Below, in pieces: positions 33,757 through 58,732 of a DNA stretch of 64,000 bases (position 1 is its first letter; every line of letters begins with the position of its first letter). The position numbers were made by a program, and so were the translations under genes. This DNA is from Nitrospira sp. KM1 (lineage in GTDB: Bacteria > Nitrospirota > Nitrospiria > Nitrospirales > Nitrospiraceae): contig NZ_AP022671.1 of NCBI RefSeq assembly GCF_011405515.1, forward strand, positions 2,976,001-3,040,000. Reading direction: 5' to 3'. The notes beneath the pieces were generated by a model. That model had not been told where the DNA came from and made no database searches. It saw only the letters and a program-made list of their open reading frames with translations.

Positions 33757-35655
33757 TCAATAGAGTAAAAACACGGTCAGAATGACGGCCACGCCGAGGG
33801 CCATGCCCAGTGCGTAATGCTGTGTTTGCCCGCTCTGCAGCAGCCGCATGAACCACGCGCCCCATGCGACGGCGCGGGCCACCCCGTTCACGGCCCCGTC
33901 GATGATCCCGACATCGACCCGTTTCCAGAGTTCCCCTGCCGCGCGAAAGGTCGGACGGACGATCACGCGGCTGTAGAGTTCATCCACATACCACTTGTGG
34001 AACGATAATTCATACGCCGCCTGCCACGTGCGGGCGAGGGTATCCGGCAGCGAAGGGTTGACCACATAGGCATAATAGGCGCCCCCGATGCCGAGGACGC
34101 CCATCAGTGTGGCCGCTGCCATGACTCCGGCAGCGCCGCTTCCATGATGCGCCGCCTGTTCACCGCCGGACGAAAACATCGGTTCGAGAAAAGACGGAAT
34201 GCCGAGGTACCCCGTGACGATGCTCAACACCGCGAGAATCATCAGCGGCACGGTAATGGTCGGCGATTGTTCATGGACGTGTGCAGCGTGATGGGGATCG
34301 ACACGGGAAGAACCCCAGAAGGTGACGAAGACCAGGCGGAAACTGTAGAACGCCGTCATGAGCGCCGTGAGCAGACCGAAGACCGTGAGCACCTGACCGA
34401 GCGGCCCGGATGACCAAGTCGATACGAGCAGGTCGTCCTTGCTGAAGAATCCGGCCGTCAGGGGAAATCCGGCGAGGGCGAGGGAACCGACGAGGAAGGT
34501 CCAATACGTGACCGGAAGCTTGTCTTTCAATCCGCCCATATGCCGCATGTCCTGCTCGTGGTGGAGCGCGAGAATCACCGAGCCGCATCCTAAGAAGAGG
34601 AGGGCCTTGAATGCTCCGTGCGTCAACAAATGGTACATGCCGGCCGCATAGGCTCCGAGGCCGCAGGCCATCATCATGTAGCCGAGTTGGCTCATCGTCG
34701 AATAGGCCACCACTCGCTTGATATCTGTTTGGGTGAGCGCGATGGTGGCGCCCAATACCATGGTCAGCCCGCCGACCACGGCAACCACGGTCATAGCCGT
34801 AGGAGACAGGTTGTACAAAGGCGCGAGGCGCGCGACCATGAACACGCCGGCGGTGACCATGGTGGCGGCGTGAATCAACGCGGAGATCGGCGTAGGGCCT
34901 TCCATGGCGTCCGGGAGCCAGACGTGCAAAGGCACTTGAGCCGATTTGCCGACCGCTCCGGTAAACAGGAGAAGACAGATCATCGTCATAACGGGAACGT
35001 CCCACGTGCCGCCCAAGGCGCTCAGGACGTTCAGTGTCGCACCGGCCGCCTCCGGGGCTCTGGCAAAGACGTCGGAATAATCGAGCGAGCCCAACGTCGT
35101 CCAGACGAGCAGAAGGCCAAGGATAAAACCAAAGTCGCCCACGCGGTTGACGATGAATGCCTTCGTCGCAGCCGCGCAGGCTGAAGGCCGTTCATACCAG
35201 TGGCCGATCAGGAGATAGGAACAGAGACCGACCGCTTCCCAAAACACGAAGAGTTGGAGGAAATTATCGGCCAGCACCAGCATGAGCATCGAAAACGTAA
35301 ACAAGGCGATATAGCTGAAAAAGCGCGCATAACCCGGTTCGCCCGCCATGTAACCGATCGTATAGATGTGAACGAGTGTACTGACCGTGGTGACCAGCAG
35401 CAGCATGACGACGGTCAACCGGTCTACCGTCAATCCGATATGGATATCGAGCGTGCCTGAGGTCAGCCAGGTATACAGGCGAAGGGTCGTATGGTGTCCG
35501 CCGGCTACATCGAAAAACGCCAGTAACGACAGCACAAAGGAAAGCGCAACGGCCGGCACCGCCACGAGATGCGCCTTGTCTTTGATCCACTGTCCACCGA
35601 GCCCCAAGATCAGAAACGAGGCCAGCGGAAAGAGAGGAATCAATTCATACGTCAT
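33757..35655 (-). CDS. nuoL: NADH:quinone oxidoreductase subunit L
   Basis: Distal proton-pumping subunit with the long lateral helix, 632 residues. It carries LFVFWEAVGLCSYLLIGHW with the conserved Glu, KSAQVPLHVWLPDAMEGPTP with the channel Lys and His, and KRVVAYSTMSQLGYMMMA, followed by the C-terminal amphipathic region (SFHKWYVDELY). The size is normal for NuoL and distinguishes it from NuoM and NuoN. It is preceded by a 91-bp gap after nuoK in which I see no gene. Confidence 0.95.
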   Translation of the reverse strand: MTYELIPLFPLASFLILGLGGQWIKDKAHLVAVPAVALSFVLSLLAFFDVAGGHHTTLRLYTWLTSGTLDIHIGLTVDRLTVVMLLLVTTVSTLVHIYTIGYMAGEPGYARFFSYIALFTFSMLMLVLADNFLQLFVFWEAVGLCSYLLIGHWYERPSACAAATKAFIVNRVGDFGFILGLLLVWTTLGSLDYSDVFARAPEAAGATLNVLSALGGTWDVPVMTMICLLLFTGAVGKSAQVPLHVWLPDAMEGPTPISALIHAATMVTAGVFMVARLAPLYNLSPTAMTVVAVVGGLTMVLGATIALTQTDIKRVVAYSTMSQLGYMMMACGLGAYAAGMYHLLTHGAFKALLFLGCGSVILALHHEQDMRHMGGLKDKLPVTYWTFLVGSLALAGFPLTAGFFSKDDLLVSTWSSGPLGQVLTVFGLLTALMTAFYSFRLVFVTFWGSSRVDPHHAAHVHEQSPTITVPLMILAVLSIVTGYLGIPSFLEPMFSSGGEQAAHHGSGAAGVMAAATLMGVLGIGGAYYAYVVNPSLPDTLARTWQAAYELSFHKWYVDELYSRVIVRPTFRAAGELWKRVDVGIIDGAVNGVARAVAWGAWFMRLLQSGQTQHYALGMALGVAVILTVFLLY

Positions 35656-35746: not shown

Positions 35747-36052
35747 TCACCATTTCAGCAACTGAAAGTCGTCGACATTGATGCTCGACTTGGCCCGATG
35801 CAGCGCGATGATGATCGCCAAGCCGATCGCCACCTCGGCGGCGGCTACCGTCAAGGCGAAAAAGACGAACACCTGACCGGCCACGTTATGGAAATACTCG
35901 GAAAACGCGACGAAATTGATATTTGTGGCGTTCAGCATGAGTTCGACCGACAACAAGATCGTAATGATGTTTCTCCGGATCAACACGCCGGTGACGCCGG
36001 TGAGAAACACGACTCCGCTGAGCACCAGATAGAACGAAAGGGGAACGGTCAT
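35747..36052 (-). CDS. nuoK: NADH:quinone oxidoreductase subunit K
   Basis: Small membrane subunit of complex I, 101 residues with three helices. The conserved Glu residues of the proton path lie in LLSVELMLNATNINFV and in AAAEVAIGLAIIIAL. It overlaps nuoJ by four bases and precedes nuoL, the standard order. Confidence 0.95.
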   Translation of the reverse strand: MTVPLSFYLVLSGVVFLTGVTGVLIRRNIITILLSVELMLNATNINFVAFSEYFHNVAGQVFVFFALTVAAAEVAIGLAIIIALHRAKSSINVDDFQLLKW

Positions 36053-36567
36053 GATTCGGCAGGCTCCAGGAGATCACGCTTGGCGAGCACGATCGCCCCG
36101 ATCATGGCCACGAGGAGAACCAAGGATGCGACTTCAAACGGAAACAGGTAAGTCGAATACAGCACGTCACCAAGGGCTTCCGTGTTTCCCAGCTGTTCCA
36201 CCGCGATGTCGGACGCATGGAGCGCTGGTGAGGGGGTTCGGCCTTTCGCAAGAGTCAGGACGATTCCTTCGAGCGCCAGCAGCGAACCGACGAGGGCGGC
36301 GGCGGGCCATTGGCGGTGATAGCGTTCATCCTGTTTGACGTTCAGCAGCATGACGACAAAGAGATACAACACCAGGATCGCACCGGCATAGACGATGATT
36401 TGCACGGCTGCAAGAAATTCGGCGCGAAGGGTCACGTATAGCCCGGCGACGTGAAAGAACATGATCAACAGGGAGAGCGCGCTGTAGATGGGATTGCGGA
36501 GTGCGACGACGAGCACCGATGTCGCCGCGATCATCAACGCAAAATAGAAGAAAAAGACCTGATCCAT
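36049..36567 (-). CDS. nuoJ: NADH:quinone oxidoreductase subunit J
   Basis: Membrane subunit of complex I at the junction between the quinone site and the antiporter subunits, 172 residues with five helices. The pattern NPIYSALSLLIMFFHVAGLY and the pi-bulge helix with VQIIVYAGAILVLYLFVVM are diagnostic. It overlaps nuoK by four bases and lies 29 bases after nuoI. Confidence 0.95.
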   Translation of the reverse strand: MDQVFFFYFALMIAATSVLVVALRNPIYSALSLLIMFFHVAGLYVTLRAEFLAAVQIIVYAGAILVLYLFVVMLLNVKQDERYHRQWPAAALVGSLLALEGIVLTLAKGRTPSPALHASDIAVEQLGNTEALGDVLYSTYLFPFEVASLVLLVAMIGAIVLAKRDLLEPAES

Positions 36568-36596: not shown

Positions 36597-37139
36597 TTAC
36601 GAAGGTTTTTGCGGGATGTTCCCGAACGACACGTTGAAAAACGCGACATTCGGATGTTGCAATTCCAATCGCTTTTCTCGCACGGGAAACGAACGGTCCC
36701 CGATGGCGAGCAGTTGCTGTTTGTTCAGCTGCAACTGGCGTTTGTCATAGACAGCCCATTCGAATTCCCGCGTCATTCCCAGGGCATCGACCGGACACGC
36801 ATCGACGCACATGCCGCAAAACAAACAACGGGTCATGTCCATGTAATATTCCTTCGAATAGCGCTTCGTCGGTTCGCCCGGCACTTCGGCGCTGACCACG
36901 CGGATGACCCGCGAGGGACAGGCCGCCTCGCACAGATCGCACCCGACGCATTTTTCCGTGCCGTCATCGTACCGGAGCAGCGCCAGCATCCCCCGGTAGT
37001 TGTCCGGCAAGGTCCGCTTTTCGTGAGGGTACTGGACGGTGATCGGCTTGTAATGCAGGAGATGCGACATGGTGGCCTTCATCCCCACAAGGATTTCGTA
37101 GAAGATGATCGTTTTGAACCACGCTGTCAGCGAACGCAT
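36597..37139 (-). CDS. nuoI: NADH:quinone oxidoreductase subunit I
   Basis: Ferredoxin-like subunit that carries clusters N6a and N6b towards the quinone site, 180 residues. Two classical CxxCxxCxxxCP motifs are present, CVGCDLCEAACP and CLFCGMCVDACP. The N-terminal amphipathic helix (LTAWFKTIIFYEILVG) anchors it on the membrane. It lies between nuoH and nuoJ, with gaps of 34 and 29 bases. Confidence 0.95.
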   Translation of the reverse strand: MRSLTAWFKTIIFYEILVGMKATMSHLLHYKPITVQYPHEKRTLPDNYRGMLALLRYDDGTEKCVGCDLCEAACPSRVIRVVSAEVPGEPTKRYSKEYYMDMTRCLFCGMCVDACPVDALGMTREFEWAVYDKRQLQLNKQQLLAIGDRSFPVREKRLELQHPNVAFFNVSFGNIPQKPS

Positions 37140-37173: not shown

Positions 37174-38250
37174 CTATTGGGGAAACAAATATGCCGCGAT
37201 CGCCGTCACCACGATATTGCCCAACGCAATGGGCAACATGACTTTCCATCCGAACTTCATCAGCTGGTCATAGCGCAGGCGCGGCAGCGTGGCGCGCAGC
37301 CAGAAAAACAAAAAAAGGAATGTGTAGACCTTGACCGTGAACCACGCGATGTTTTCGGCCCAGGCGAACTGTTCGAGGCCGAGGTGCCCGAGAATGGTCC
37401 CGGGATACGGAGCGTTCCATCCCCCGAGAAACATGGCCGCTGCCACGCAGGACACCAGCACCATATTGGCGTATTCCGCGATGAAGAAAAATGCGAACCG
37501 CATCCCGCTGTATTCCGTAAAAAATCCCGCCACCAGTTCGCTCTCCGCTTCCGGCAAGTCGAACGGGACGCGGTTCGTTTCGGCCACCGCGGAAATGACG
37601 TAGACGACGAACGCGAAAATCTGAGGCGCCGGCAGCGCGAAGACATACCAATGCCAGAATCCTCCGGATTGAGCCTCCGTAATCTTGACGAGGCTCAAGG
37701 AGCCGGCCAGTAAGAGAACCCCGACGATGGCCAAGCCCACGTTCAGTTCGTAACTGATGACTTGGGCGGCTGAGCGCAGTCCTCCCAGCAGGGAATATTT
37801 ACTGTTGGAGGCCCACCCCCCCAGAATGATGCCGTAGGCTCCGATCGAGGTGAACGCAAGAATGTACAGAATGCCGATGTTGATGTCGCTGATCACGAAC
37901 GGCTTGACCGTGATGCCCATGAATTCGAACGGTTGATTCGGCCCGAACGGCACGACGGCAAAGCCGATCAGCGCCGGAACCATGGCGAGGATCGGCGCCA
38001 GCGTGAACATGAACTTGTTGGCTCCGGCCGGTACGATGTCTTCCTTGAAAAACAGCTTCAGACCATCGGCGATCGGTTGCAACACGCCGTAGGGGCCGAC
38101 TTCCATCGGACCCATCCGGTCTTGCATCCAGCCGAGCACCTTGCGCTCGGCCAGGGTCAGGATCATGACCGTGAGCATCACGATACCCATGACGGCTGCG
38201 ATCTGGGCGAGAGAAATAACTAAGCGCACGCTGAGTTCAGTCACGGTCAC
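37174..38250 (-). CDS. nuoH: NADH:quinone oxidoreductase subunit H
   Basis: Membrane subunit that forms the entrance of the quinone chamber, 358 residues with about eight helices. Family signatures are [16 protein letters not shown] near the start, [25 protein letters not shown], and [18 protein letters not shown] with the acidic cluster linking the quinone site to the proton channels. It has a normal length and no insertion, and starts 44 bases after nuoG. Confidence 0.96.
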
Positions 38251-42284: not shown

Positions 42285-42818
42285 TCAATCTTGTGCGGCC
42301 GGTTCGGGCCACATGTAGGGACCGCTTTTCAAAGGGCTCGTGCCGGCGGTCCTCAGGTCCGCGAGAATTCTGTCCACGCGGTCCTCCGTCAACCGCTCGT
42401 AATAGTCATCGTTGATTTGCATCATGGGGCCGGTGCCGCAGGCGGCGAGGCATTCGACGGTGCTCAATGTGAAGAGTCCGTCCGTCGTCGTCTCGCCCGG
42501 GCCGATCCCGAGTTTGTGCTTCAGCCACCCGACCACCGTATCAGAGCCCACCAGAGCGCACATGAGCGATTTGCACACCTGAATGTGGTATCTGCCCACT
42601 TTCTTGAGGTTGAGCATCGTATAGAATGTAGCGGTTTCATAGACCTGCGGCGGCGTCAGGGTCAGCAGCCCCGCTATTTCGATCATGGCCGCTTCTGTCA
42701 CATACCCCTGCTCGCGCTGAGCCAGATACAGCAGCGGAATGAGGGCGGACCGCTTGACCGGGTATCTCATGAGGATATCGTCGATTTCTTTCTGATATTT
42801 CTCTCTTAGCACGGGCAC
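42285..42818 (-). CDS. nuoE: NADH:quinone oxidoreductase subunit E
   Basis: Thioredoxin-like [2Fe-2S] subunit of the NADH module, 177 residues. The four cluster ligands are in VCKSLMC and VECLAACGTGP. The helical N-terminus (AQREQGYVTEAAMIEIAGLL) is typical of NuoE. It is separated from nuoCD by 131 bases, the longest gap inside the operon, where I recognise no gene. Confidence 0.95.
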   Translation of the reverse strand: MPVLREKYQKEIDDILMRYPVKRSALIPLLYLAQREQGYVTEAAMIEIAGLLTLTPPQVYETATFYTMLNLKKVGRYHIQVCKSLMCALVGSDTVVGWLKHKLGIGPGETTTDGLFTLSTVECLAACGTGPMMQINDDYYERLTEDRVDRILADLRTAGTSPLKSGPYMWPEPAAQD

Positions 42819-42949: not shown

Positions 42950-44701
42950 CTACCTGTCGCACTCTCCCATGACAATATCGTAGGTGCCGAAGATCGTGAT
43001 GATGTCGGAAATCAAATAGCCCCGCGCCATGTGATCGAACGCTCCCATGTGCACGAACGACGGGGAGCGGATTTTCAAGCGGTAGGGACGGGCCGAGCCG
43101 TCGCTGACGATGAAAAATCCGAGTTCTCCCTTCGGCGCTTCCGTCGCACAGTACGTCTCCGCTTTCGGCGGTTTGAGACCCTGCGTGAAGATGATGAAGT
43201 GATGGATCAAGCTCTCCATATCCCGCATGACGTGCGGCTTCGGGGGCGGAATATATTGAGGCGCATCCGCGATGATCTCCCCGGGCGGCATCTGATCCAG
43301 GCATTGCTTGATGATCCTGGCGCTCTGCCGCATTTCCTCCATCCGGACCCAATAGCGATCGTACGTGTCACCGCTTTTCCCGATCGGGACTTCCCAATCG
43401 ACCCTGTCGTAGACTCCGTAGGGCTCTTCCTTGCGGATATCGTAGGCGACGCCGGATCCCCGCAGCACCGGGCCGGTGCATCCGAAATTGATGGCATCGG
43501 CAGCGGAGATGACGGCGACATTCTTCGTACGGCCGAGCCAGATGCGATTGGTCGCGATCAATGAGTCGTACTCCTTGACCTTGTCCGAGAACGTTTCCAG
43601 AAACGTTTTCATCCGCTGGACGAGGTCGGGGGTGAAGTCGCTGTCAACACCGCCGATGCGATAGTAATTCAACGTCAGACGAGCTCCGCACAGCTTTTCG
43701 AACATGTCGAGCAGAGTCTCGCGCTCTCGGAATGTCCAGAAGAACACCGTCATGGCGCCAATATCCAGTGCCTGTGTCCCCAGCCAGAACAGATGACCGA
43801 TGATGCGCTGCATTTCGGCCACGATCGTGCGGATGTATTCGGCTCGTTCCGGAATCGTGATCCCCAGCAGTTTTTCGACCGTTCGCACGTACGCGTAGTT
43901 GTTGGCCATTGCGCACACATAGTCGAGCCGGTCGGTATGAGGGATGATCTGCATGTACGCGAGGCCTTCGGAAAGCTTCTCGACTCCGCGATGCAGATAC
44001 CCCAGGTCGGGCGTGGCCTTCACGATCCGCTCACCGTCCAGTTCAAGCACCACGCGGAGCACCCCATGAGTGCTGGGGTGCTGCGGCCCCATATTCAGCA
44101 GCAGTTCCTCGCGGCGACGGCGACCGGATGGAACCGAGTCGGATCGGAACACCTGTTTTTCCTGTTCGGGAATCTCGCTGCCGGCCATTTCGGCCGGCGG
44201 TTCGTCCAGGCGCGGGATGAACTCGAACTGGCTGCGCCAACCCCGGCCCTCCGTCGGGAAGTCCTTCCGCAGGGGGAATCCTTCCGCATAGTCCTCGGGC
44301 ATGAGGATCCGGCGGAGATCCGGATGCCCGGTAAAATGAATTCCCATCATGTCGTACACTTCACGCTCAAGAAATTCCGCGCCTTTCCAGATGCCGGTCA
44401 CGGAAGCAATCGTGGGATTGTCCTCATTCAGTCTCGCTTTGAGCCGTAACCGGTGACGATGCGGCAGCGAGTGCAGATGATAGACCACCTCGAACCGCTG
44501 CTGGTCTTCCGGATAATCGACCGAACAAATATCAGAAAGATGGTCGAAGGACGCCTCCGGTGCGTCGTGGAGAAATCTCGCCAACTCCACGATATGCGCC
44601 GATGCCACGGACACAGATACCTCGGACCGTTGCGTATCCGCCTGAACAGACAGCACGGCCTCCGGGAATTTTGTCATCAACGTTTCGAACAAGGATTCCA
44701 T
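42950..44701 (-). CDS. nuoCD: Fused NADH:quinone oxidoreductase subunits C and D
   Basis: One 583-residue polypeptide joining NuoC (about residues 1-180; [20 protein letters not shown]) and NuoD (about 200-583; [17 protein letters not shown]). The NuoD part lines the quinone site next to cluster N2 and ends in GECDR, the usual C-terminus. The linker of about 20 residues is Pro/Glu-rich. The fusion is also known in enterobacteria and other lineages. Arg and His residues of the [12 protein letters not shown] loop lie near cluster N2 in known structures. It begins six bases after nuoB. Confidence 0.95.
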
Positions 44702-44707
44702 AACCGG

Positions 44708-45187
44708 CTATTTCACGAACACCTTTTCCCGCTGAATTTTTTCTTGCAACTTGAGGAGTCCGTCCATCAGCGCCTCCGGCCTGGGAGGACAGCCTGGAAC
44801 ATAGACGTCCACGGGAACGATCTGATCGACGCCCTGCACGACGGCATAGCTGTTGTAATGGTTGCCTGACGTCGCGCAAGAGCCCATTGAAATGACGTAG
44901 CGCGGTTCGGGCATCTGATCGTAGATGCGTCGGATGACCGGGGCCATCTTGCGGCTGACGGTGCCGGCCACGATCATGAGATCCGACTGCCGGGGCGATG
45001 CGCGGAACACGCCGGCGCCGAACCGGTCGATGTCGTAGCGCGATGAAACGCTGGCGATCATTTCGATCGCGCAGCAGGCCAACCCGAACGTCATGGGCCA
45101 CAAGGCGGACTTGCGAGCCCAGTTTACGACCGCGTCCAAATTGGTCGTGATGATATTGGCTTCGAGTTGGCGCTCCAGAAAACTCAT
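44708..45187 (-). CDS. nuoB: NADH:quinone oxidoreductase subunit B
   Basis: Subunit carrying the terminal cluster N2, 159 residues from the preferred ATG at 45187, which has GAGGA five bases upstream. Cluster ligands are the tandem Cys in LACCAIEM, the Cys in GSCATSG and the Cys in [12 protein letters not shown] longer frame adds 12 residues without a ribosome site. It lies between nuoA (76-base gap) and nuoCD. Confidence 0.95.
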
Positions 45188-45263
45188 GTTGTCCTCACCG
45201 TATTCCGTCCCGAATGCAGGCACACTGGGCGAACCGGATGGGCTGAACGAATACTGGCCTCGC

Positions 45264-45635
45264 TCAATCCCATTCTAACGCTCCCTTCTTCCACGCGTAC
45301 CACAGGCCGACCAGAAGAATGGCGATAAAGACCAGCATCTCCGCGAGTCCGAGGAAACCCAACGACTGAAACCGCACCGCCCAGGGAATAATGAAAATGA
45401 CTTCGATGTCGAAAATGACGAATAGCATCGCGATGATGTAGTAGCGAATCGGGAACTGAATGCGCGCATCGGAAAACAGCGGGCTGCCGCTCTCATATGG
45501 ATTGAGCTTGGCGCGATAGGGCCGGCTTGGCCTGACGAGCTTGCCCAATAATAGAGACGCCATGCCAAACACCACGGCAATCCCGATGAAGATCAGAATC
45601 GGGAGATAATTCAGCGGGGTCGTCTCTCCACCCAT
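45264..45635 (-). CDS. nuoA: NADH:quinone oxidoreductase subunit A
   Basis: Small membrane subunit with three helices, 123 residues. The conserved stretch [23 protein letters not shown] gives the family, followed by the Asp/Glu in [15 protein letters not shown]. It is the first structural subunit of the operon and begins nine bases after the MidA-like gene. Confidence 0.95.
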
Positions 45636-45644
45636 AGGTGTTCC

Positions 45645-46811
45645 TCACACCGCAGCGTACGCGCTCAATGCGGAGCCGAAAAATGGTTTGAATGCCAGGC
45701 CATCCAGTTCGGGACGCTCGATCCCTTTGTGCTGGACGAGAATCTTGAATGTGCGGCCCATGCCTTCCGGCTTCAGCAGATGAACAGCCGCTTGAAACTC
45801 CCGGCTTCCCGGTTCATGTCTGGCGATCAGTTCTTCGACCCCGAGACCCATGAGAAAGCTCATTTGATTGGTGAAACCCGTGACGGATAAACCGCACGCT
45901 TCTCCCACCGTGGCCAGAGTCGTAAAATCAACGTGCGCCGTCATGTCTTGCAGTCCGACCCTGATATATGGGTCTTCGGAGGTCATCTGTGCATGGTAAC
46001 AGATCAGCGTCCCGCGTGATCGCTCCGGCCCGTACAGGTCTCGTGCCGCATGGCCGTAATCGATGGTCATGACGATTCCACGGTTGAGACTGCCTGCGAC
46101 CTGCTGCATCCAGGCCGACGCCGCGAGGTTGATCTCCGTGCGATACCCGTCCGGCAGTTCGATGCGGACTCGCTCGAGATATTCGCGGAGGGCCGATTGG
46201 GACAGTGGCCTCAGACATTCGACGAACCGCCCGTCCCGGATCTCGACAAAGATTTCTAAAAGCACGCCGTCCTTCATTTCGACGCGGTGGACCGGGAAGG
46301 CATCGGGCAACTCGTTGCTGAACATCAACCCTGTCGTGCTGGATTCGCCGAGACCGCTCAGATCCTCAAGCCAGGTGATTTGGTCGAACCACGGTCGGAG
46401 ATGCTGTTGTTGCACGGACCTCATCGATGCACTGCGCTCGATCAAGACGTACCGCAACCGGCGCGCCAACGCGGGGCATTCGTCATGCGCGGCGGAGAGG
46501 ACATGTCGTGCGAGCAGTCCCTTTCCCGGCCCCATTTCGATCACGACGAAGGGGTTGGGATGGCCAAGAAGACTGTCGACTTGTTGCGCCTGTCTTGCGA
46601 GCGCCTGCCCCAAAATCGGATGGACATCCGAACTCGTATAGAAATCGCCTGACCACCCGATCCGCTCCTCGTGGGCTTCTGGAGGCCTCATGTAATACCC
46701 GAACTGAGGATGATAGAGCGCCAGTTCCATGAAACGGACAAATGGGATCGGTCCGGTAGCGGAGATCTCGGAGGCGATGGCGGCGATGAGTTCAGGGTGG
46801 CCAAGCGTCAT
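45645..46811 (-). CDS. MidA/NDUFAF7-family SAM-dependent methyltransferase
   Basis: A 388-residue class I methyltransferase of the COG1565/DUF185 family. Motif I reads VIEMGPGKGLLARH (GPGKG at 94-98), after the family block GDFYTSSDVHPILGQALA and before FSNELPDAFPVH. In mitochondria the family member NDUFAF7 (MidA) symmetrically dimethylates an Arg of NDUFS2, the NuoD homologue, and is needed for complex I assembly. Here the gene is the first of the nuo operon, nine bases before nuoA, so the same role on NuoCD is a reasonable inference. The ATG at 46811 matches the family start; a longer frame runs 25 codons upstream. Confidence 0.85.
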   Translation of the reverse strand: MTLGHPELIAAIASEISATGPIPFVRFMELALYHPQFGYYMRPPEAHEERIGWSGDFYTSSDVHPILGQALARQAQQVDSLLGHPNPFVVIEMGPGKGLLARHVLSAAHDECPALARRLRYVLIERSASMRSVQQQHLRPWFDQITWLEDLSGLGESSTTGLMFSNELPDAFPVHRVEMKDGVLLEIFVEIRDGRFVECLRPLSQSALREYLERVRIELPDGYRTEINLAASAWMQQVAGSLNRGIVMTIDYGHAARDLYGPERSRGTLICYHAQMTSEDPYIRVGLQDMTAHVDFTTLATVGEACGLSVTGFTNQMSFLMGLGVEELIARHEPGSREFQAAVHLLKPEGMGRTFKILVQHKGIERPELDGLAFKPFFGSALSAYAAV

Positions 46812-47247: not shown

Positions 47248-49968
47248 TTAGGCCCCGTGGCACTTCTTATATTTTTTCCCGCTGCCGCAGGGGCAGGGAT
47301 CGTTTCGACCAACCTTGTCGTCGTTTCGCTGGACGGTTTGCGAGGCGATCGGTTCGTTCCCGCGATTAAGGATGAGCTTGGGCTGAGGAGGGGTGATGAC
47401 GGGAGGAGGCGGTGGGGCGGCGGCCGGACCGTCGTTTCTGACCGCCTGCACATGGAACAGCCGATCGATGGTGTCCGATTTGATGCGTTCCATCATGCCG
47501 GCGAAAAGATCAAACCCTTCCCGTTTGTATTCGATCAACGGATCTTTTTGGCCGTACCCGCGCAAACCGATTCCGTCGCGAAGATGGTCCATCGCCAGAA
47601 GATGGTCTTTCCAATGATGGTCGATCACCTGCAACATGAAATTCTTTTCGAGGAACCGCATGAGATCCGATGACAACTCACGCTCTTTGTGACCGTATGC
47701 CTCCTGGACCTGGTGTTTGAGGTCTTCAATGAGTGCGTCACGTCCCATGTCACGCAGCGATTCCCCACCGTCGTGTTTCCCCTGCGTCACATCGAGGCCG
47801 AACTGCCCCTGCATCATCTCGGTCAGGCCCTTCATGTCCCATTCCTCGGGATACTGTTCGGCTGGACAGTAGACAGTGAGTGCGGACTCTGCGATGGACG
47901 ACATCATGTCGAGAACGTCGCCGGCGAGGGTCTCTCCGCTCAGCACCGCTCGGCGGTGACGGTAGATCACTTCGCGCTGTTTGTTCATCACGTCGTCATA
48001 TTCGAGGAGTTGCTTCCGGATCTCGAAATTGTGGGCCTCCACCTTTTTCTGCGCATTGGCGATGGCGCGCGTGACCATGCCGTGCTCGATGGGAATGCCT
48101 TCCTCCATTCCGAGCTTGAGCATCAGCTGCGAGACTCGTTCGGAGGCGAAGATGCGCATCAGATCGTCTTCCAGAGACAAATAGAAGCGGGATGAACCGG
48201 GGTCGCCCTGACGTCCGGCCCGACCGCGGAGCTGATTGTCGATGCGCCGGCTCTCGTGCCGCTCCGTCCCCAGGATATGGAGTCCGCCCAACCCGACCAC
48301 GTCCTGTTTGTTCTTTTCACAATCGGAGCGGATGTCCTCGTAGACGGCCAGTTTTCGCTCATCGGGAAGATTCTCTTCCCGATACAGCACCTGCTTGAAC
48401 ATGAAATCCGCGTTGCCGCCGAGAAGAATATCGGTGCCGCGGCCTGCCATATTGGTGGCGATGGTCACGGCTCCCTTGCGCCCGGCCTGAGCGACGATTT
48501 CCGCTTCGCGCTCGTGCTGTTTTGCGTTCAACACGTTGTGCTTGACCCCGCTGCGGCTCAGCATGCCGGCGATCTTTTCGGACTTCTCGATCGAAATGGT
48601 GCCAACCAGCACGGGTTGGCCCCGTTCATGGCACTCCTTGATCTCTTCGACGATGGCCGCGAATTTTTCCTTCTCCGTGCGATAGACGACGTCGGCGTAA
48701 TCGAGCCTCACCATCTTCCGGTTGGTCGGCACCACGTTCACATCCAGATTGTAAATCTTGGCGAACTCCGAGGCTTCCGTGTCCGCGGTCCCGGTCATGC
48801 CTCCCAGCTTCTTGTACATGCGGAAGTAGTTCTGGAACGTAACGGAGGCGAGCGTTTGATTCTCATTGGCGATTTTGACGCCTTCCTTGGCCTCGACGGC
48901 CTGATGGAGTCCGTCGCTCCAGCGGCGCCCCGGCATCAAGCGACCGGTGAACTCGTCGACGATGATGACCTCACCGTCTTTCACGACGTAATCGACATCC
49001 CTCCGGTAAAGCGCGTGGGCCTGAAGGGCTTTGACCACGTGGTGCACCATGTCCATGTTCGCGGGATCATATAAATTGTCGACTCCTAGGAGCCGTTCGA
49101 CCCGGGCGTTGCCGTCTTCCGTCAACGAGGCGGTCTTCGTTTTTTCCTCGATCGTATAGTCTTGTTCGACCTTGAGTTGGGGGATGATGGCATTGATGCG
49201 ATAGTACAGGTCAGTCGTTTGGTCGGTCGGGCCCGAAATGATCAGCGGCGTTCTGGCTTCGTCGATCAGAATGCTATCCACCTCGTCGACGATGGCGAAA
49301 TTCAATTCCCGTTGCACGCACTGGTTCAAATCCGTGACGACCAGGTTGTCCCGCAGATAATCGAAGCCGTACTCATTGTTCGTGCCGTACGTAATATCCG
49401 CCCGGTAGGCCTCTGGCCTGGTGCAGGGGCGCAGGTGCTGCAGGCGACGGTCCGACGCCTCGTAGGTCGGATCGAAGAAGAACGAGGCATCGTGCTGAAT
49501 GACTCCGGTGGACAGTCCGAGCGCATGGTACAGCTGTCCCATCCATTGGGCGTCCCGTTTCGCCAGGTAATCGTTGACGGTGACCAAATGGGCGCCCTTA
49601 CCTTCGAGCGCATTCAGATAGATGGGAAGGGTCGCCACCAAAGTTTTGCCTTCCCCGGTCTTCATTTCCGAAATGCGACCCTTGTGCAGGATCATCCCGC
49701 CGATGAGCTGCACGTCGAAATGCCGCATGTTGAGTTTCCGTTTTGACATTTCCCGGCAGACGGCAAAGGCCTCCGGCAGAATGTCGTCGAGTGTCTCTCC
49801 GGCGCTGAGCCGTTTCTTGAACTCCTGGGTCTTGTCGGTGAGGGCTTCGTCCGAGAGCGGGGCAAGAGAAGCCTCCAGACCGTTGATACGTTGGACGACA
49901 GGCATCAACGCCTTGATTTCACGTTCGTTCTTGCTGCCGAAGACGAGATTCAATACTTGTGTCAGCAT
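47248..49968 (-). CDS. secA: Protein translocase ATPase SecA
   Basis: Motor of the Sec export pathway, 906 residues. It shows the DEAD-type nucleotide-binding domain ([30 protein letters not shown]), the second motor domain with GRGTDI and [10 protein letters not shown], the helical scaffold, a Pro-rich linker and the C-terminal zinc finger ([12 protein letters not shown]) used for SecB and ribosome contact. The ATG at 49968 is two codons inside a GTG-started frame; no clear ribosome-binding site is visible for either. It diverges from the small His/Cys protein gene. Confidence 0.96.
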
Positions 49969-50099
49969 GGTCACGTGTTATTTATTTAACGGTACCGGCC
50001 GTGCTCATCGCAAGTGTGACGAGCTATTCTGCGGGAGTATACCGGAAACGTACGGTGAATCCTATCGTGAAGACGGCGGAGTTTTAGCGGAGCATCGCC

Positions 50100-50552: not shown

Positions 50553-51644
50553 ATGCGGGGGGTAGAGTCGGTGAATTTTTCTAACACGGCCACCGCGGTC
50601 GATGCAAAACAGATGAGCGGACAGCTTCGGCTCCGCGGCTGGGGTCTGTCCATAGGGCTGCACGGGTTTGCTGTGGCAGGTTCGATGCTTTTGATGGCGC
50701 AGATCCAACCTCCGCCATTGAAAGAGACGTTCCAGTGGGATGTTTCGGTCGTTGAGGCTCCTACGGAAAAGCCGGTCATGGCTGCGGCCCAACCTATGCG
50801 CGCGCCGGTGCCGCCCACGCCTCCACGGCCTCAAAAGGCGACTCCAGCGGCTGAACCTCCTCCTCCCGTTGTGACACGGTCCGTGCAATCCAAGGAGCAG
50901 CCTGTCGTCATGCAGCGCGATCAGCCGCGAACCATCGAACAAGTGACCCCGGTCGTTCAAGCCCAACCGGTCGAACAACACCAGGAACCCGTTCAGGAAA
51001 ATATTCAACCCCAGCAAGTCCAGATGGCCGAGCGGCAGGTTGAACAAGCAACCCATGAAGCCGTACGACACGAAGAGCCGGTCCAAGAAGCGCCTCCTTA
51101 CGAGAAAGTGATCGCACCGGCGCAGCCGGTGCCCACTCAAACGACGGTGGCAGCCGTTCAGCACGAGATGGCGCCCGCAGCGATCGAACAGCAGCGTCAC
51201 GATGCCCCGGTCCAGCGTGCTGCGCCTGCGCAGGAATCCAGTCCGCCGGTATCGGAACGGGCGGACAGCGTGGCTGCAGCCCCTCCGGCTCCCATGGTGA
51301 CGGAGACGCCCGTTCAAGTCGCAAAAGCAACTGTTTCGGGTCCGGAAACCAAGGCCGATCACCGCTGGATCGCCGAATCGCTTGGCCGCAGACTGGCCGA
51401 ACTCAAACGCTATCCCAGTTCTGCGAGGATGAACGGGCTGGAGGGAAAGGTCATTCTGAAAGCCGTCATCCGTTCAGACGGACAATTAGCCGAGGTGTCG
51501 GTGCAGAAAAGTTCCGGGCATGCCGTTCTCGATGCTGCGGCCATAGAAGCCGTCAGGCTGGCCTGCCCGCTGCACATGAAGCATGCGATCGAGAGGCCTC
51601 AGGTGGTCGTCAGTGTACCGATGGTGTACAGCCTTGCCAATTAA
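50553..51644 (+). CDS. tonB: TonB-family energy transducer
   Basis: A 363-residue TonB protein that couples inner-membrane proton-motive force to outer-membrane receptors. One N-terminal helix (SIGLHGFAVAGSMLLMAQI) is followed by a periplasmic linker of about 200 residues rich in Pro, Gln, Val and Glu, and a C-terminal TonB domain (RYPSSARMNGLEGKVILKAVI, with SSGHAVLDAAAIEAVR). No exbB or exbD is adjacent, so these must be elsewhere. The linker has unusually many Gln-Pro-Val repeats. The start at 50553 is the first ATG; a GTG six codons later is possible. Confidence 0.88.
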   Translation: MRGVESVNFSNTATAVDAKQMSGQLRLRGWGLSIGLHGFAVAGSMLLMAQIQPPPLKETFQWDVSVVEAPTEKPVMAAAQPMRAPVPPTPPRPQKATPAAEPPPPVVTRSVQSKEQPVVMQRDQPRTIEQVTPVVQAQPVEQHQEPVQENIQPQQVQMAERQVEQATHEAVRHEEPVQEAPPYEKVIAPAQPVPTQTTVAAVQHEMAPAAIEQQRHDAPVQRAAPAQESSPPVSERADSVAAAPPAPMVTETPVQVAKATVSGPETKADHRWIAESLGRRLAELKRYPSSARMNGLEGKVILKAVIRSDGQLAEVSVQKSSGHAVLDAAAIEAVRLACPLHMKHAIERPQVVVSVPMVYSLAN

Positions 51645-51675
51645 TGACGGAAGAAAAGGCGATCCGCCGGAACGA

Positions 51676-52983
51676 ATGGGCAAACCGGTGATGATTGCGG
51701 GGCCATCCCGCAGAGCAGGATGGTTCGCGGTCTACGGGGTATGGCTCGCCCTATCCGCTACGTCGGCCTGGTCGGGGTCGCAGCTTCCCGTCGAATTCGG
51801 TCAAAAGGACGTCCACACCCATCACGTCAAAAGCGTCGTCGGTCCTTCAGTCCACATCGATGAAAAAGGATTCATCGCCGCCGCCTGGGTGGAAGAGGAT
51901 AAGGATGTACGCACGATCTTCTTTGCAAAGTCCGATACACCCGGCGGACCACTTGGGCAGCCGGTTCGAGTCAATGATCCATCCGAGAGCCCCTATTACA
52001 GACAGGAGTCACCCGCGCTGTCGCTCCATGGAAACGATGTTTTCCTGACCTGGTCGAAGACGCATCCCAACATGACTCCTGACAAGCCGTTTTCCAGCGA
52101 GCTCCGCTTGAGCCGATCCCATGACGGCGGGCGTACATTCGCCCCGTCCACTCTCGTCAACGATGACGGGCAGGTGATCAATCATACGTTCGATGCCATG
52201 CAGGTGGCCCCCGATGGCGCCGTCCATATGGCGTGGATCGATGGTCGCGAAGGCAAGAAAGAACCGGGAACATTTGTGGCCCGCTCGGCCGACGGTGGAC
52301 GGACGGTTACGAAGAACATGAAAGTCGATGAGAATACCTGCGTCTGTTGCCGGACGGCATTAGCCGCCTCTTCCGACGGAACCATTTATCTGGCTTGGAG
52401 AAAAATCCTCGACGGGAACGTTCGTGAAATCGTGGTGTCGCGGTCGATCGACGGAGGGGAGAACTTTTCCCGTCCAACCATCGTCGGGAACGACCGGTGG
52501 GTCTATCCTGCCTGCCCGCATCGGCCGGCTTCTCTCGGTGTCGATCGCCAGGGGCGCCTCTATGTCGCGTGGTACACCGAGGGTGCAGACGAGACTCCTG
52601 CGATCTATCTGGCTTATTCGGACGACAAGGGCTCCACGTTCTCAGAGAAGCATCAACTGAATCGCTCGAAAGGAACCTTTCCGGACCATCCGCAAATGGC
52701 GGTCGATCAGGAGGGCCGGGTCGTCGTTGTCTGGGAAGAACAATCACCGGTACGCCGCGAGGTTGTCGTCAGCTACTCTGTTGATCGAGGCGGGTCGTTC
52801 AGCATTCCGATGAAACTCAACGAAAAAAACGGTCAAACGCCGACTGTCGCGGTGAACCAACAGGGAACCGTGGTGATGGGTTGGAAAGAACATGCCATGC
52901 CGGCTCATCGAATGGTGCTACAGACCATGTCATTTCCCTCCGTGCAGGTTGCCGGAGAAGGATCCGGCCGTCATGGGCACTAG
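51676..52983 (+). CDS. Secreted Asp-box (BNR) beta-propeller protein
   Basis: A protein of about 435 residues with a signal peptide and at least five Asp-box repeats of the form S-x-D-x-G-x-T-F (SHDGGRTF, SADGGRTV, SIDGGENF, SDDKGSTF, SVDRGGSF), giving a sialidase-like propeller. The sialidase Arg triad and FRIP motif were not found, so sialidase activity is doubtful. One loop holds a C-x-C-C motif (Cys222, 224, 225). Placed between tonB and a thioredoxin gene, it may bind a metal or substrate in the periplasm. The ATG at 51676 begins the signal peptide; an ATG five codons later is possible. It overlaps the next gene by 11 bases. Confidence 0.72.
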   Translation: MGKPVMIAGPSRRAGWFAVYGVWLALSATSAWSGSQLPVEFGQKDVHTHHVKSVVGPSVHIDEKGFIAAAWVEEDKDVRTIFFAKSDTPGGPLGQPVRVNDPSESPYYRQESPALSLHGNDVFLTWSKTHPNMTPDKPFSSELRLSRSHDGGRTFAPSTLVNDDGQVINHTFDAMQVAPDGAVHMAWIDGREGKKEPGTFVARSADGGRTVTKNMKVDENTCVCCRTALAASSDGTIYLAWRKILDGNVREIVVSRSIDGGENFSRPTIVGNDRWVYPACPHRPASLGVDRQGRLYVAWYTEGADETPAIYLAYSDDKGSTFSEKHQLNRSKGTFPDHPQMAVDQEGRVVVVWEEQSPVRREVVVSYSVDRGGSFSIPMKLNEKNGQTPTVAVNQQGTVVMGWKEHAMPAHRMVLQTMSFPSVQVAGEGSGRHGH

Positions 52984-53542
52984 CCTCGGCACCCGGTTGG
53001 TCTGTTTGCTCATGCTTGTGGGCGCGGTCTTGCAGACAGGAGACGGCCCGGTATTCGGCGGTGACTCCGCCTCCCGTGATCCCTTTGCCGAACTGAAAAT
53101 CAACCGCACGACTGCCGATCGGATCCTCGAGCCGTTCGATCTGAAGGGGCTCGACGGGGCTTCCGTCCGTTCGGGGGATCTCAATGGGAAAGTGGTGTTG
53201 TTGAATTTTTGGGCGACCTGGTGCGGCCCCTGCAAAGAGGAAATGCCGTCATTAGCACGGCTGCAGCGCGGGTTCGATCCACAGCGATTCGCCGTGGTTA
53301 CGATCACGACCGATGTGCAGCCTCAGGGCATCAAGCAGTTTCTGAATCACTTGGGGATCACGTTACCGGTGCTTTTCGATGAAGACCAGGAGGTTTCGCG
53401 CGGCCTCATGGTGCGCGGATTGCCCACGACCGTACTCGTTGCATCCGACGGGAGAGTGGTCGGCCGCGCCGTGGGACCGCGAGCCTGGGACAGCCCGGAA
53501 TCATTGAATTTGGTGAGGCACGTGCTCGACGACCAGAAATGA
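52973..53542 (+). CDS. TlpA/ResA-type thioredoxin, membrane-anchored or periplasmic
   Basis: A 189-residue thioredoxin-fold protein with an N-terminal hydrophobic segment (LVCLLMLVGAVL) and the active site WCGPC (83-87) in the AhpC/TSA-Redoxin context LLNFWATWCGPCKEEMPSL, with the cis-Pro in RGLPTTVLV. TlpA and ResA proteins reduce cysteines in periplasmic partners, for example in cytochrome c or copper-site assembly. The likely partners here are the Cys-rich products of neighbouring genes, by inference. The start at 52973 lies within the end of the propeller gene, and the stop overlaps the next gene (ATGA). Confidence 0.85.
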   Translation: MGTSLGTRLVCLLMLVGAVLQTGDGPVFGGDSASRDPFAELKINRTTADRILEPFDLKGLDGASVRSGDLNGKVVLLNFWATWCGPCKEEMPSLARLQRGFDPQRFAVVTITTDVQPQGIKQFLNHLGITLPVLFDEDQEVSRGLMVRGLPTTVLVASDGRVVGRAVGPRAWDSPESLNLVRHVLDDQK

Positions 53543-53856
53543 AGCGGGCTCCCGTTCTATTGTCATTGACCGTCGCCCTCTTTTATGCCGCATTGGCGAT
53601 GGGGGCGGCCGGTTGCCAGTTTCTTCATCCGGACAGCCCGTTCCACTCCAGGCACCAGAGCAACTCTCACGTGGCTCACTCGGCGATATGCGCCTGGGCC
53701 TGCCAGGTCAATCCGTCGGCTGCGCTCGTCCCGGTGATTCCATCGGTGACCCTTCTATTCATGCTCTCGCGGGTCCTGCCGCTTCTCAGGACTCCCTACA
53801 TTTCCTTCGCATCGCCCGTTCGGCTCTCCCGCGGCCCCCCACTCGTTGCGCGCTGA
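53539..53856 (+). CDS. Small secreted His/Cys protein (CxWxC type), copy 2
   Basis: A 105-residue protein with a signal peptide that may carry a lipobox-like end (MGAAGC), a His-rich stretch (HSRHQSNSHVAHS), the motif CAWAC and a C-terminal SRGPP. The order of elements matches the protein at 50147-50458, so the two are probably distant paralogues. It overlaps the TlpA-like gene by four bases (ATGA) and precedes the TonB-dependent receptor by 91 bases. The tight linkage to a thioredoxin suggests that its Cys pair is kept reduced for metal binding, which is inference. Confidence 0.68.
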   Translation: MKRAPVLLSLTVALFYAALAMGAAGCQFLHPDSPFHSRHQSNSHVAHSAICAWACQVNPSAALVPVIPSVTLLFMLSRVLPLLRTPYISFASPVRLSRGPPLVAR

Positions 53857-53947
53857 GTTCTATCACCGTCATTCGGTTTTTCACAGGCAAAAGACACCGC
53901 CTGCTTCATGGGCGCTGTCCAGCCCACCATTGAAGGAGTATCGAGCC

Positions 53948-56293
53948 ATGTCGTCTCGTGTACAGGTTTGTCGAGGGTGGTGCATCATGCTATACGCTCT
54001 CGCGGTCGTATTCGGATCATTGGTATGGAGCAGCATTGGCGCCGCTCAAGATACATCTGTCGAACCTGCTCCCTCGGCCCGGGAAACGGAATTGCGCGAT
54101 CAACTCAAGGGTATTCTCCAAGAACTGGAAGACATTCAACACAAGAAGGAACAGGCGGCACCGGAGGCGGAACGTGCGCCTGTCGTCAAGGAAAAGACCT
54201 CGGCGCCGGCACCGGAATCGGAACATGAGACTGTTCCGGAATACGAGCTCGCAGACATGAGCATCGTGAGCAAGCGCATGCAGAAACGTCCGGAAGGCGT
54301 GTCCATCTCGGCTACCATCCCGGCCGAAACCGATTCTCAGCCGACGCGTACGATGAAAGAGTCGATGGAATCTATTCCCGGCGTCGTACTGAGGCAGGCA
54401 AACGGCCCGCGCGACTTCAGCATCATGATTCGCGGCCAGGGCGCCAAGACGGCGTTTGCCGTTCGCGATATCAAGGTCTATGAAGACGGGTTCATTCAGA
54501 CGCAGTCGGATGGTCTCTCGCGCCTGGATATGCAAGACCCCTGGTTCATGCGCAGCACCGAAGTGACACGCGGCGCCTCGTCCTCCCTGTACGATAACTA
54601 TGCGTTAGGCGGTATGGTTCAATTTAGGACAAGGCGCGGCAGCGACATCAACGGGTTCGAAGCCTTTCTCCAAGGCGGATCCTACGGCTTTCAAAAGCAG
54701 GCGTTTGCGGTTGGTCAGCAGTTTGAAAATCTCGACGTGTCACTGTTCGGCAGTAATGCCGCCGAAGACGGATATATCAGGAACAGCGACTATTCGACGC
54801 AGACAATCAACTTCAACCTCCGTTTCAAGATCGATGACAAGCAGAATTTCTACTTCAAGGCGATTTCCAACTGGCTGGATACCAGAGTGCCGACCCGATT
54901 GACTCAAGCACAATTCACGACGGACGATCGCCAAGCCGGAGGAGCTCAGACAACCTGCGTGTCCGGAACGTACATGGCCGGCTGCGCCAATGCGACGTTG
55001 CTCCATCAACAGCGCATCGATCGGCGGACCATCGTGGGGGGTATCTATGAGCGTCAGCTCAACGCGGGCACGGTGCTGACCATCGAAGGGGATTACGACG
55101 TCAAAGACATCAATCAATACTTTTCTCAGATCACCGACAACGTCAATCCAAACGTCAAGTCATACGCCGACCTGCGAAACGACAGCCGGGTCGGAGGTAT
55201 GCCTCTGCGGAGCTACGTCGGATTCTTCATCAACAACATGGAGCAGGAGGGGAACACGTTCCAAAACCTAGCGGACGGTCAAGGCACGCGGGGATCGTTG
55301 CTTCAAAACAACCGCGGCACGATACGGAACATCGGAGGAAGGATTCGAGAGGAACTCGAATTCGTTCCGAAATGGATTCTCGCAGCAGGCTTGGGATTTG
55401 AGCAGTCAATGATCAGCGTGCAGTCAATCAATTACACAGGCGCAACACCGTCGCCGGTGAGCGCGAATCGCACGTTCTATAATTGGGCGCCCGAAGTCTC
55501 GCTATCTTGGAAACCGGAAGACGGCTATCGGACTTGGATACGCGCCTCGACTGGATACGGCATTCCGCAATTCAACAATCTTCTCAGGGATCCGGTGACG
55601 GGACTGCCGGGCACCAATTTCGACCTGAAGCCTCAGAAGAATCTCAACACGGAAATCGGCACGGAAGCGAGGCTTCATCGAACGCTCGGCGTCCAATTAG
55701 TTGGGTTCTGGACATTCTTCAAAAACGAGATCATCACACAGACCATTTCAGGAGGGAATACGGCCTCCGTCAACGCGGATTCTTCCCAATACCGTGGAAT
55801 CGAAGCGTCGTATGACTGGCGGCCGCTTTCCGGATTACGGCTCTCGGGAGCCTATACGCACATCGATGCCCGATATATCAATTTCTCCGATCGGGTCGCA
55901 GCGGGATTTCTCTCGAGAGACGGGAAAAACGTTCCGAATGTTCCGACGGACGTATTACACACGAAGGCCGAGTACGACCACGCGTTGTCCGGATGGGGTG
56001 GATGGATCGAGGCCTCGTATTACAATAGCTACTTTCTGAACAACAGCAATACGTTCGGAATCCCTTCCTATCTCATTGCGAATATCAATGTACACAAAAC
56101 CGTGGACGTAAAGAGCAAGTGGTTCCGTTTTGCCAAATTTTATCTCGAGCTCGATAACATCGCGGATAAGAAATACGTCGCGTCCGGCCAGGTCATCGGC
56201 GGCGAGACCACCGCTGCCGGCGCCTCTCAGCAGGCATTCTTCGCCGGCTACGGGCGGGCTATCTATGGAGGGGTCACGCTGGGATTGTTCTGA
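53948..56293 (+). CDS. TonB-dependent outer-membrane receptor
   Basis: A 781-residue receptor with a signal peptide ending near GAAQ, a short coiled-coil and Ala/Pro/Glu-rich segment (about 35-95), a plug domain (TMKESMESIPGVVLRQAN, IMIRGQGAKTAFAVRDIKVY, GASSSLYDNYALGGMVQF) and a 22-strand-type barrel ending in Phe. Such receptors import chelated metals, cobalamin or similar ligands with energy from TonB. The Fec/FhuE-like layout does not fix the ligand. The ATG at 53948 has AAGGAG ten bases upstream. The tonB gene lies about 2.3 kb upstream on the same strand. Confidence 0.88.
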   Translation: MSSRVQVCRGWCIMLYALAVVFGSLVWSSIGAAQDTSVEPAPSARETELRDQLKGILQELEDIQHKKEQAAPEAERAPVVKEKTSAPAPESEHETVPEYELADMSIVSKRMQKRPEGVSISATIPAETDSQPTRTMKESMESIPGVVLRQANGPRDFSIMIRGQGAKTAFAVRDIKVYEDGFIQTQSDGLSRLDMQDPWFMRSTEVTRGASSSLYDNYALGGMVQFRTRRGSDINGFEAFLQGGSYGFQKQAFAVGQQFENLDVSLFGSNAAEDGYIRNSDYSTQTINFNLRFKIDDKQNFYFKAISNWLDTRVPTRLTQAQFTTDDRQAGGAQTTCVSGTYMAGCANATLLHQQRIDRRTIVGGIYERQLNAGTVLTIEGDYDVKDINQYFSQITDNVNPNVKSYADLRNDSRVGGMPLRSYVGFFINNMEQEGNTFQNLADGQGTRGSLLQNNRGTIRNIGGRIREELEFVPKWILAAGLGFEQSMISVQSINYTGATPSPVSANRTFYNWAPEVSLSWKPEDGYRTWIRASTGYGIPQFNNLLRDPVTGLPGTNFDLKPQKNLNTEIGTEARLHRTLGVQLVGFWTFFKNEIITQTISGGNTASVNADSSQYRGIEASYDWRPLSGLRLSGAYTHIDARYINFSDRVAAGFLSRDGKNVPNVPTDVLHTKAEYDHALSGWGGWIEASYYNSYFLNNSNTFGIPSYLIANINVHKTVDVKSKWFRFAKFYLELDNIADKKYVASGQVIGGETTAAGASQQAFFAGYGRAIYGGVTLGLF

Positions 56294-56323
56294 CAATTTG
56301 AATGGCAACAGACGGCGCGAACG

Positions 56324-56809
56324 ATGGAAACCCTGCACGGACGTCGACCATGTCGTGCGCAGGCGGTCTTGGAGCAATTTGACGACGGCGGCTATGCCGC
56401 ACTGATGGGACTGGTGAAGTCACCTGACGTGTTTGCATGCGCGGTCAGTATCGCCGGCCCAACGGATCTTCGGATGCTGCTCCGCGACAGAGAATTTTAT
56501 GTGGGGGTTGGAAGCCAGGATGAAGTACGGATCGGCCGCTGGTGGTCCGATCGTGAGCGGTTGAGGCTCACATCTCCAGTCGATCAGATTGGCAGTATCA
56601 GAAAACCAGTTCTGCTCTTACACGGCGTGCAAGACGTCGTGGTGCCCGTGGAGCATTCGCGAATCATGGCGGAGAAATTCAAGGCAGCGCGTTATGCGCA
56701 GTATCGATATGTGGAGTTGCCATTTGGAGACCATTGGCTCAGCCGCGAGCAAGACCGGATCCGTGTCTTCAGCGAGCTCGAGGAGTTCCTCACACCGTAT
56801 CTTCAGTGA
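56324..56809 (+). pseudogene. Decayed fragment of an S9 prolyl oligopeptidase-type hydrolase
   Basis: Only about the last 145 residues of a peptidase S9 catalytic domain are present: GGYAALMGLVKSPDVFACAV, then SIAGPTDL, the catalytic Asp region LLHGVQDVVVP and the His region GDHWLS. The nucleophile position in the G-x-S-x-G-G-Y motif reads FDDGGY, so the Ser is lost. A short stretch typical of the missing upstream part (DVDHVVR, 56340-56360) occurs in another frame, which points to a frameshift. An intact family member has over 600 residues. No ribosome-binding site is seen. It is most probably a remnant, although a short protein could still be made. Confidence 0.7.
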
Positions 56810-56962
56810 AGGCGGAGGGCAGATTCTGTTCCCCGACGGGCTTGGATCGGAAGGACCATGGTTCCCATTCACCGCTACAGGCCGAGTTGATTTCATACCC
56901 CTCGGTCCGTATAGTCCAAGCTGTCTACGTGGCAGGCGAATGGTGTGCCGGTTGAAACGCGT

Positions 56963-58012: not shown

Positions 58013-58082
58013 TGAGGAAAGCGCCAGCTCGTCTCGCCTGCCTTGGAGAGGGTTGGCGGGAGAGGTCATGTGACGGAGGCGG

Positions 58083-58637
58083 CTACCAATAAGGCCAGGG
58101 ACGCCAGTAGGGACTCCAATACGGGCCCCAATAAGGCCCCGGACCATAATACGAATACGGATAAGGCCTGCTGCGCGGGTAGCTTTGCTCCGAAACATTC
58201 CAGACTTGGAGTTTTCGGGCGTCGACGGTCGGATAGGTGTATTCGGTCTCATCAAGAGGGAGCGTCACGGAACCGGTGACATCTCCGGTGACGGTCACTC
58301 TGGTCCCATGCGGGATGGTGGCTGGATCAAGAAATTCTTTGTGAAGCGCGACGAATCGCCCTTGAGATTGCGTGAGGTCGGAACCAGGCGCTCCGGATCT
58401 GTCCAGAGGAAGCTGAAGGATTTCAATGCGGGTGCCTTCCCTCAGGCGTTTGGCAGAAAGCACTTCTCCGCCCAGCTGCACTTCCTGCCCTCTATATGAG
58501 TCCGGCGACCCCTTGACCTGGGCGAACGTCACCCGGTTGACCGGAACACTGTCATCGCTTTCTTGCGATGAGGCACAACCTGCCAAAAGGGCAAGAAACA
58601 GTGCGGCATACCCGTAGGCACGCAGGTGGATGCGCAT
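58083..58637 (-). CDS. slp: Slp-family outer-membrane lipoprotein
   Basis: A 184-residue lipoprotein (lipobox LLAGC) resembling Slp, the starvation-inducible outer-membrane lipoprotein: VTFAQVKGSPDSYRGQEVQLGGEVL, then RIEILQLPLD and a small OB-like beta fold. The last 30 residues are an extreme Tyr/Pro/Trp-rich tail (repeats of PYW with SYYGPGP), not part of the family core. TATAAT ends seven bases before the ATG, so the mRNA may be nearly leaderless. A longer upstream frame lacks a signal peptide. It diverges from the DsbA-like gene. Confidence 0.8.
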   Translation of the reverse strand: MRIHLRAYGYAALFLALLAGCASSQESDDSVPVNRVTFAQVKGSPDSYRGQEVQLGGEVLSAKRLREGTRIEILQLPLDRSGAPGSDLTQSQGRFVALHKEFLDPATIPHGTRVTVTGDVTGSVTLPLDETEYTYPTVDARKLQVWNVSEQSYPRSRPYPYSYYGPGPYWGPYWSPYWRPWPYW

Positions 58638-58643
58638 ACTGCG

Positions 58644-58649: not shown

Positions 58650-58677
58650 ACAAACAGCAGTCGAACGAGGTATTCGA

Positions 58678-58683: not shown

Positions 58684-58732
58684 GACGGGTTCGTACGTCG
58701 AAACGCAGCAGATAAGATGAAAGGAGAGAACG

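Follow-up and report, generated by a model that had tools for sequence, protein, structure and literature searches.

A MidA/NDUFAF7-family gene heads the complex I operon of Nitrospirales: a candidate arginine methyltransferase for NuoCD

In Nitrospira sp. KM1, the nuo operon encoding complex I is headed by a methyltransferase gene of the MidA/NDUFAF7 family, a linkage that is fixed in the order Nitrospirales and specific to that order within Nitrospirota. With a probability of roughly 0.7, this gene encodes a bacterial equivalent of NDUFAF7/MidA, namely a SAM-dependent arginine methyltransferase that dimethylates Arg238 of NuoCD during complex I assembly. Nitrospirales would then probably methylate the arginine that mitochondria methylate next to the last iron-sulfur cluster.

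The window, which is the whole stretch of 64,000 nucleotides that was analysed (positions 2,976,001 to 3,040,000 of contig NZ_AP022671.1), contains a complete nuoA-N operon headed by midA, with all genes on the minus strand:

47248..49974 (-), secA, the upstream neighbour, from its Pfam SecA domains
45645..46811 (-), midA/NDUFAF7-like class I SAM methyltransferase gene, 388 aa from ATG, from PF02636, PDB matches and fold
45636..45648 (-), midA-nuoA junction, from the sequence: midA TGA (45647-45645), overlapping GAGGA, 9-nt gap to the nuoA ATG (45635)
45264..45635 (-), nuoA, from PF00507 (E=8.5e-38)
44708..45223 (-), nuoB, from PF01058, with Thr88 in VAGTVS, the non-swapped state (Arg in Thermus)
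42950..44701 (-), nuoCD, fused, the predicted substrate, from PF00329 and PF00346
43988..43990 (-), codon of NuoCD Arg238 in LHRGVEK, equivalent to bovine Arg85, Yarrowia Arg121 and Paracoccus Arg65
42285..42818 (-), nuoE, from PF01257
40967..42274 (-), nuoF, from PF01512
38295..40964 (-), nuoG, from PF00384 and Fer4_Nqo3
37174..38250 (-), nuoH, from PF00146 (E=4.4e-127)
36597..37139 (-), nuoI, from Fer4 domains and position
36049..36567 (-), nuoJ, from PF00499
35747..36052 (-), nuoK, 101 aa, family from position and reading of the sequence
33757..35655 (-), nuoL, from PF00361 and PF00662
32188..33750 (-), nuoM, from PF00361
30704..32191 (-), nuoN, from PF00361

The junction carries TGAGGAACACCTATG, with a Shine-Dalgarno-like GAGGA (TGAGGA) lying across the midA stop. 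The arrangement looks like a coupled operon and suggests co-transcription of midA with the nuo genes; scans for sigma-70 promoters and terminators gave nothing above chance. The initial annotation had placed a MidA-family gene nine bases before nuoA as the first gene of a complex I operon, and strand, coordinates, family and the 9-nt gap all agree with this description. The ORF could also start from a GTG at 46886, giving 413 aa, but the ATG at 46811 is preferred, as in the starts of homologues (xxxGHPELxAAIASE).

Judging from its sequence and predicted structure, the product is a genuine full-length member of the MidA/NDUFAF7 family and a predicted enzyme. It matches the Pfam profile PF02636 (Methyltransf_28) with E=6e-67 and 226 bits, against a cut-off of 23.3, over profile positions 2-249 of 249. 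Sequence matches were also found in the PDB with 4f3n/4g67, 1zkd and the Dictyostelium MidA 5ztz. The AF2 model (pLDDT 89.8), used as query, aligned over nearly its whole length with family structures at Z scores of 46.7 (4g67), 44.3, 40.4 and 40.4 (5ztz/5zu0) and 38.3 (1zkd), while the best unrelated methyltransferases reached only 17.0, well below the family members. In the alignment with the sequences of 5ztz, 1zkd and 4f3n, the SAM-binding ExGxGxG motif reads EMGPGKG and the invariant blocks NExxD, DYG and D-x-T-x-HV-x-F are kept. The Burkholderia thailandensis (4f3n/4g67, COG1565) and Rhodopseudomonas palustris (1zkd, DUF185) proteins share family and fold, and their PDB entries carry no assigned function. 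The likeness to human NDUFAF7 and Dictyostelium MidA extends to the Pfam family, the full-length fold and the SAM motif, with the substrate arginine present in Nitrospira NuoD as well. Unlike these, the Nitrospira gene lies in a complex I operon, and it is known here from sequence and predicted fold. Identity between Nitrospirales MidA and the Dictyostelium protein is about 30%.

Other, more distant relatives of the family were seen along the way. A 484-aa protein (L002:919-2373, minus strand) has a weak PF02636 match of 26 bits, and comparable weak matches in ORFs of about 475-590 aa recur in most Nitrospirales genomes. In a sister family (f2), many genomes have, besides the nuoA-linked copy, another MidA paralogue that is more diverged (about 135-168 bits), for instance at G312 C1:1167546 and G305 C1:22744.

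Linkage was surveyed in depth in Nitrospirota and Pseudomonadota. Of 118 genomes sampled across the phylum Nitrospirota, 87 have MidA. The gene lay directly 5' of nuoA, in the same orientation, in 22 of 23 members of the window's family and in both genomes of a sister family. One more family has it 4.4-4.8 kb from nuoA in three genomes out of four, and in the locus read the interval contains unrelated genes, nadB among them; no midA-nuo linkage was observed in the remaining MidA-bearing families of this sample. A second sample comprised 97 genomes of the order Nitrospirales from four families, 90 of them with a full-strength MidA match. There, the next gene after midA was a nuo gene in all 90: nuoA in 89 (63 established by coordinates and 26 by direct reading of the DNA) and nuoH in one, the reduced genome G105. 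An apparent lack of adjacency in 27 Nitrospirales genomes was ruled out for 26 by this reading, the 27th being G105. Since the arrangement is kept in 89 of 90 genomes and the 90th has midA before nuoH, the midA-nuoA adjacency is not due to chance. The spacing ranges from -8 to +88 nt, with many gaps of 5-10 nt and an 8-nt overlap of the two genes in three relatives. The gene upstream of midA varies among relatives while midA-nuoA stays; secA was ruled out as a member of the unit in this way, its adjacency being lost in several relatives in which midA-nuoA is kept. The direct genetic link between methyltransferase and complex I that had been proposed for the window is thus conserved in all 90 genomes. 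Extended to the phylum and beyond, the proposal holds for Nitrospirales and for the nuoN-linked Pseudomonadota described below but, save for the 4.4-4.8 kb proximity, not for the other Nitrospirota families.

Among 150 Pseudomonadota genomes sampled, 17 have midA in the same orientation as nuoA and, judged by distance, 15.3-16.4 kb 3' of it. Reading of 14 loci (12 of the 17 and two contig-edge cases) placed it directly after nuoN, and in G234 the nuoN-MidA pair stands at a contig start. The interval between nuoN and midA mostly lacks any ORF of at least 60 aa; two loci differ, L173 having small ORFs there and L175 one of 295 aa. Across the 150 genomes, MidA and NuoA were both present in 114, MidA alone in 2 (one at a contig edge), NuoA alone in 21 and neither in 13, a co-occurrence with a Fisher p of 4e-8 before any phylogenetic correction. 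A tree built from 91 MidA sequences places the Nitrospirales proteins in a clade of their own (support 96) and those of the nuoN-linked Pseudomonadota inside a separate clade with 19 members (support 97). Dictyostelium MidA clusters with alphaproteobacterial sequences (support 100), and the Nitrospirales clade stands elsewhere, outside this alphaproteobacterial-eukaryotic clade. Because the MidA clades are separate and one gene precedes nuoA whereas the other follows nuoN, the two linkages are most simply explained as independent, and apparently are so. A 2018 paper reportedly argues for a proteobacterial origin of MidA.

That MidA is an active methyltransferase whose main substrate is something else, be it a protein, an RNA or a small molecule, and that its place before nuoA stems from an ancestral rearrangement kept for promoter or translational coupling, appears unlikely. 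Such a reading would suit the fact that midA lies away from nuo genes in most of the rest of Nitrospirota and that, in the 80 alphaproteobacterial midA loci read, flanks of up to 8 kb a side contained no recognised nuo subunit gene; the sole matches, at L133, resemble Mrp-type antiporter genes and not nuo. It would also suit G114, a 98% complete genome with MidA and neither a NuoD nor a NuoA match, and a Wolbachia study in which MidA is proposed to have a role linked to DNA methylation (PMC12455994). Two further candidates for MidA in a genome lacking complex I, G067 and G116, were ruled out, as NuoD fragments lie at or near their contig ends, and so was G234, on account of its nuoN-MidA pair at a contig start. 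Against a different main substrate stand the linkage at opposite operon ends in two phyla, the persistence of midA-nuoA while the upstream neighbour changes, and the near-constant presence of complex I in MidA-bearing genomes, both in the 150 Pseudomonadota and in 20 of 20 tested genomes of the alphaproteobacterial MidA loci nearest to Dictyostelium MidA.

The initial annotation had asked which arginine of NuoCD corresponds to NDUFS2 Arg85, and alignment offsets to solved structures gave the answer: Arg238 aligns with bovine residue 85, Yarrowia 121 and Paracoccus 65. The equivalent arginines have been reported to be dimethylated (PMC3750175, PMC8042128). In Paracoccus denitrificans, Arg65 of Nqo4 is symmetrically dimethylated, while Arg249 of E. 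coli NuoCD is unmethylated (PMC3750175), and human NDUFAF7 was shown to methylate Arg85 (PMC3829151). Mutation of the arginine itself destroys the N2 site (PMC8042128), which masks the role of its methylation. Paracoccus resembles the present case in being a bacterium with the equivalent arginine, there methylated; unlike Nitrospira, it is an alphaproteobacterium, and the 80 midA loci read come from other members of that class. The suggestion that the modification may exist in the lineage of the window is supported in part, with a conserved linkage and the equivalent arginine in place, but its occurrence in bacteria is not in itself new (PMC3750175).

All NuoD sequences checked in Nitrospirota have this arginine, whether or not the genome encodes MidA, and it is also found in E. 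coli-type NuoCD (HHRG). The Nitrospirota families f4, f7, f8 and f9 gave no MidA match, and an LHR-motif NuoD was read in f4, f7 and f9. Since MidA-less lineages have LHRG NuoD, the LHR motif does not require MidA. Because the same arginine occurs there, its presence, as read from sequence, is necessary rather than diagnostic and proves little; its presence or absence was accordingly rejected as a marker of MidA. The initial annotation had treated absence of this residue as evidence against the modification; the residue is there, but given its occurrence in MidA-less genomes this is nearly uninformative. A Thermus-type swap of Arg and Thr between NuoD and NuoB was rejected, NuoB keeping its Thr in all loci read, and the NuoCD/NuoB pair of the window is not the Thermus arrangement, because NuoB carries Thr88.

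The motif around the arginine nevertheless differs with MidA status in Pseudomonadota. It was LHRG or LHRA in 20 of 20 sampled genomes with MidA, whereas among 20 MidA-less, NuoA-bearing genomes it was the E. coli-type GYHHRGAEK in 16 and LHRG in four, the latter possibly incomplete assemblies (p=8e-8 for the 20+20 genomes, before phylogenetic correction). The form reported as unmethylated, E. coli NuoCD, is of the HHRG type (PMC3750175). The contrast between LHRG and HHRG probably reflects the type of the entire complex I and not a rule for substrates. It offers two forms for comparison, LHRG mostly in the company of MidA and HHRG lacking it. In the MidA-less f7 genomes (L042, L044), two complex I types were seen, the second NuoD in L044 being GYHHRGAEK.

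The reduced genome G105 (2.0 Mb, Nitrospiraceae) departs from the usual gene order. Its contig 49 (L032) reads secA-midA-nuoH-nuoI-nuoJ, with nuoA-G missing, and its sole NuoD, which carries LHRG, is encoded by another, 2M-like operon on a different contig (L223, contig 39). Because this genome keeps midA-nuoH-I-J and has its only NuoD in a 2M-type operon, MidA may act in trans, and its target is probably not only the NuoCD encoded in cis. The sole nuoH match in G105 adjoins midA and the 2M-like operon has no nuoH, which suggests that NuoH is possibly shared with the 2M-type complex I. The Nitrospira 2M complex I has been published as devoid of nuoE, nuoF and nuoH (PMC6606698). In agreement, no nuoE, nuoF or nuoH match was found in the second complex I operon of the window's genome (L038, G000 C1:2645000-2662000), which has two NuoM-like genes and a NuoD with LHRG.

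It is quite unlikely that MidA serves complex I without methylating Arg238, as an assembly chaperone or by modifying another residue or subunit: the conservation of the arginine regardless of MidA, because of which the substrate site cannot be deduced from sequence, and the retention of midA with nuoH-I-J and not with nuoCD in G105 fit such a role, but the NDUFAF7 and Paracoccus data point to the same arginine (PMC3829151, PMC3750175), the SAM site of Nitrospirales MidA is intact and G105 still has an LHRG NuoCD elsewhere.

Under the preferred reading, namely dimethylation of NuoCD Arg238, MidA would be translated from the shared transcript just ahead of the nuo subunits and would bind newly made NuoCD. 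Symmetric dimethylation of Arg238 (in LHRGVEK), next to cluster N2, would follow, and this would assist the docking of NuoCD to NuoB and the formation of the N2/quinone site. A similar assembly role has been proposed for human NDUFAF7 (PMC3829151). For the Nitrospirales MidA, the family, fold, SAM motif, operon position and presence of the target arginine were observed directly, as was the second linkage in Pseudomonadota; we infer co-transcription, catalysis, substrate identity, the symmetric dimethylation itself and any effect on complex I assembly.

The enzyme family and its mitochondrial role are already established, as is the modification in one bacterium; arginine methylation beside N2 is known from mitochondria and one alphaproteobacterium. 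The order-wide operon link in Nitrospirales, outside Proteobacteria, appears to be new, and so do the nuoN-linked midA and the association of MidA with complex I type, as far as the literature searched shows; this search found no methylation data for Nitrospirota. An operon-encoded bacterial enzyme, with a fixed place in one order and a separate linkage in another phylum, offers a genetically simple route to remove the methyl groups while the arginine is retained, and thanks to the constant gene link in Nitrospirales the bacterial counterpart can readily be tested.

Beyond the operon, the plus strand of the window at 50553-61961 encodes, by eye from the translations, TonB-like, sialidase-like repeat, thioredoxin-like, TonB-dependent receptor and DsbA-like proteins and a heavy-metal P-type ATPase, possibly a cluster for metal uptake and efflux.
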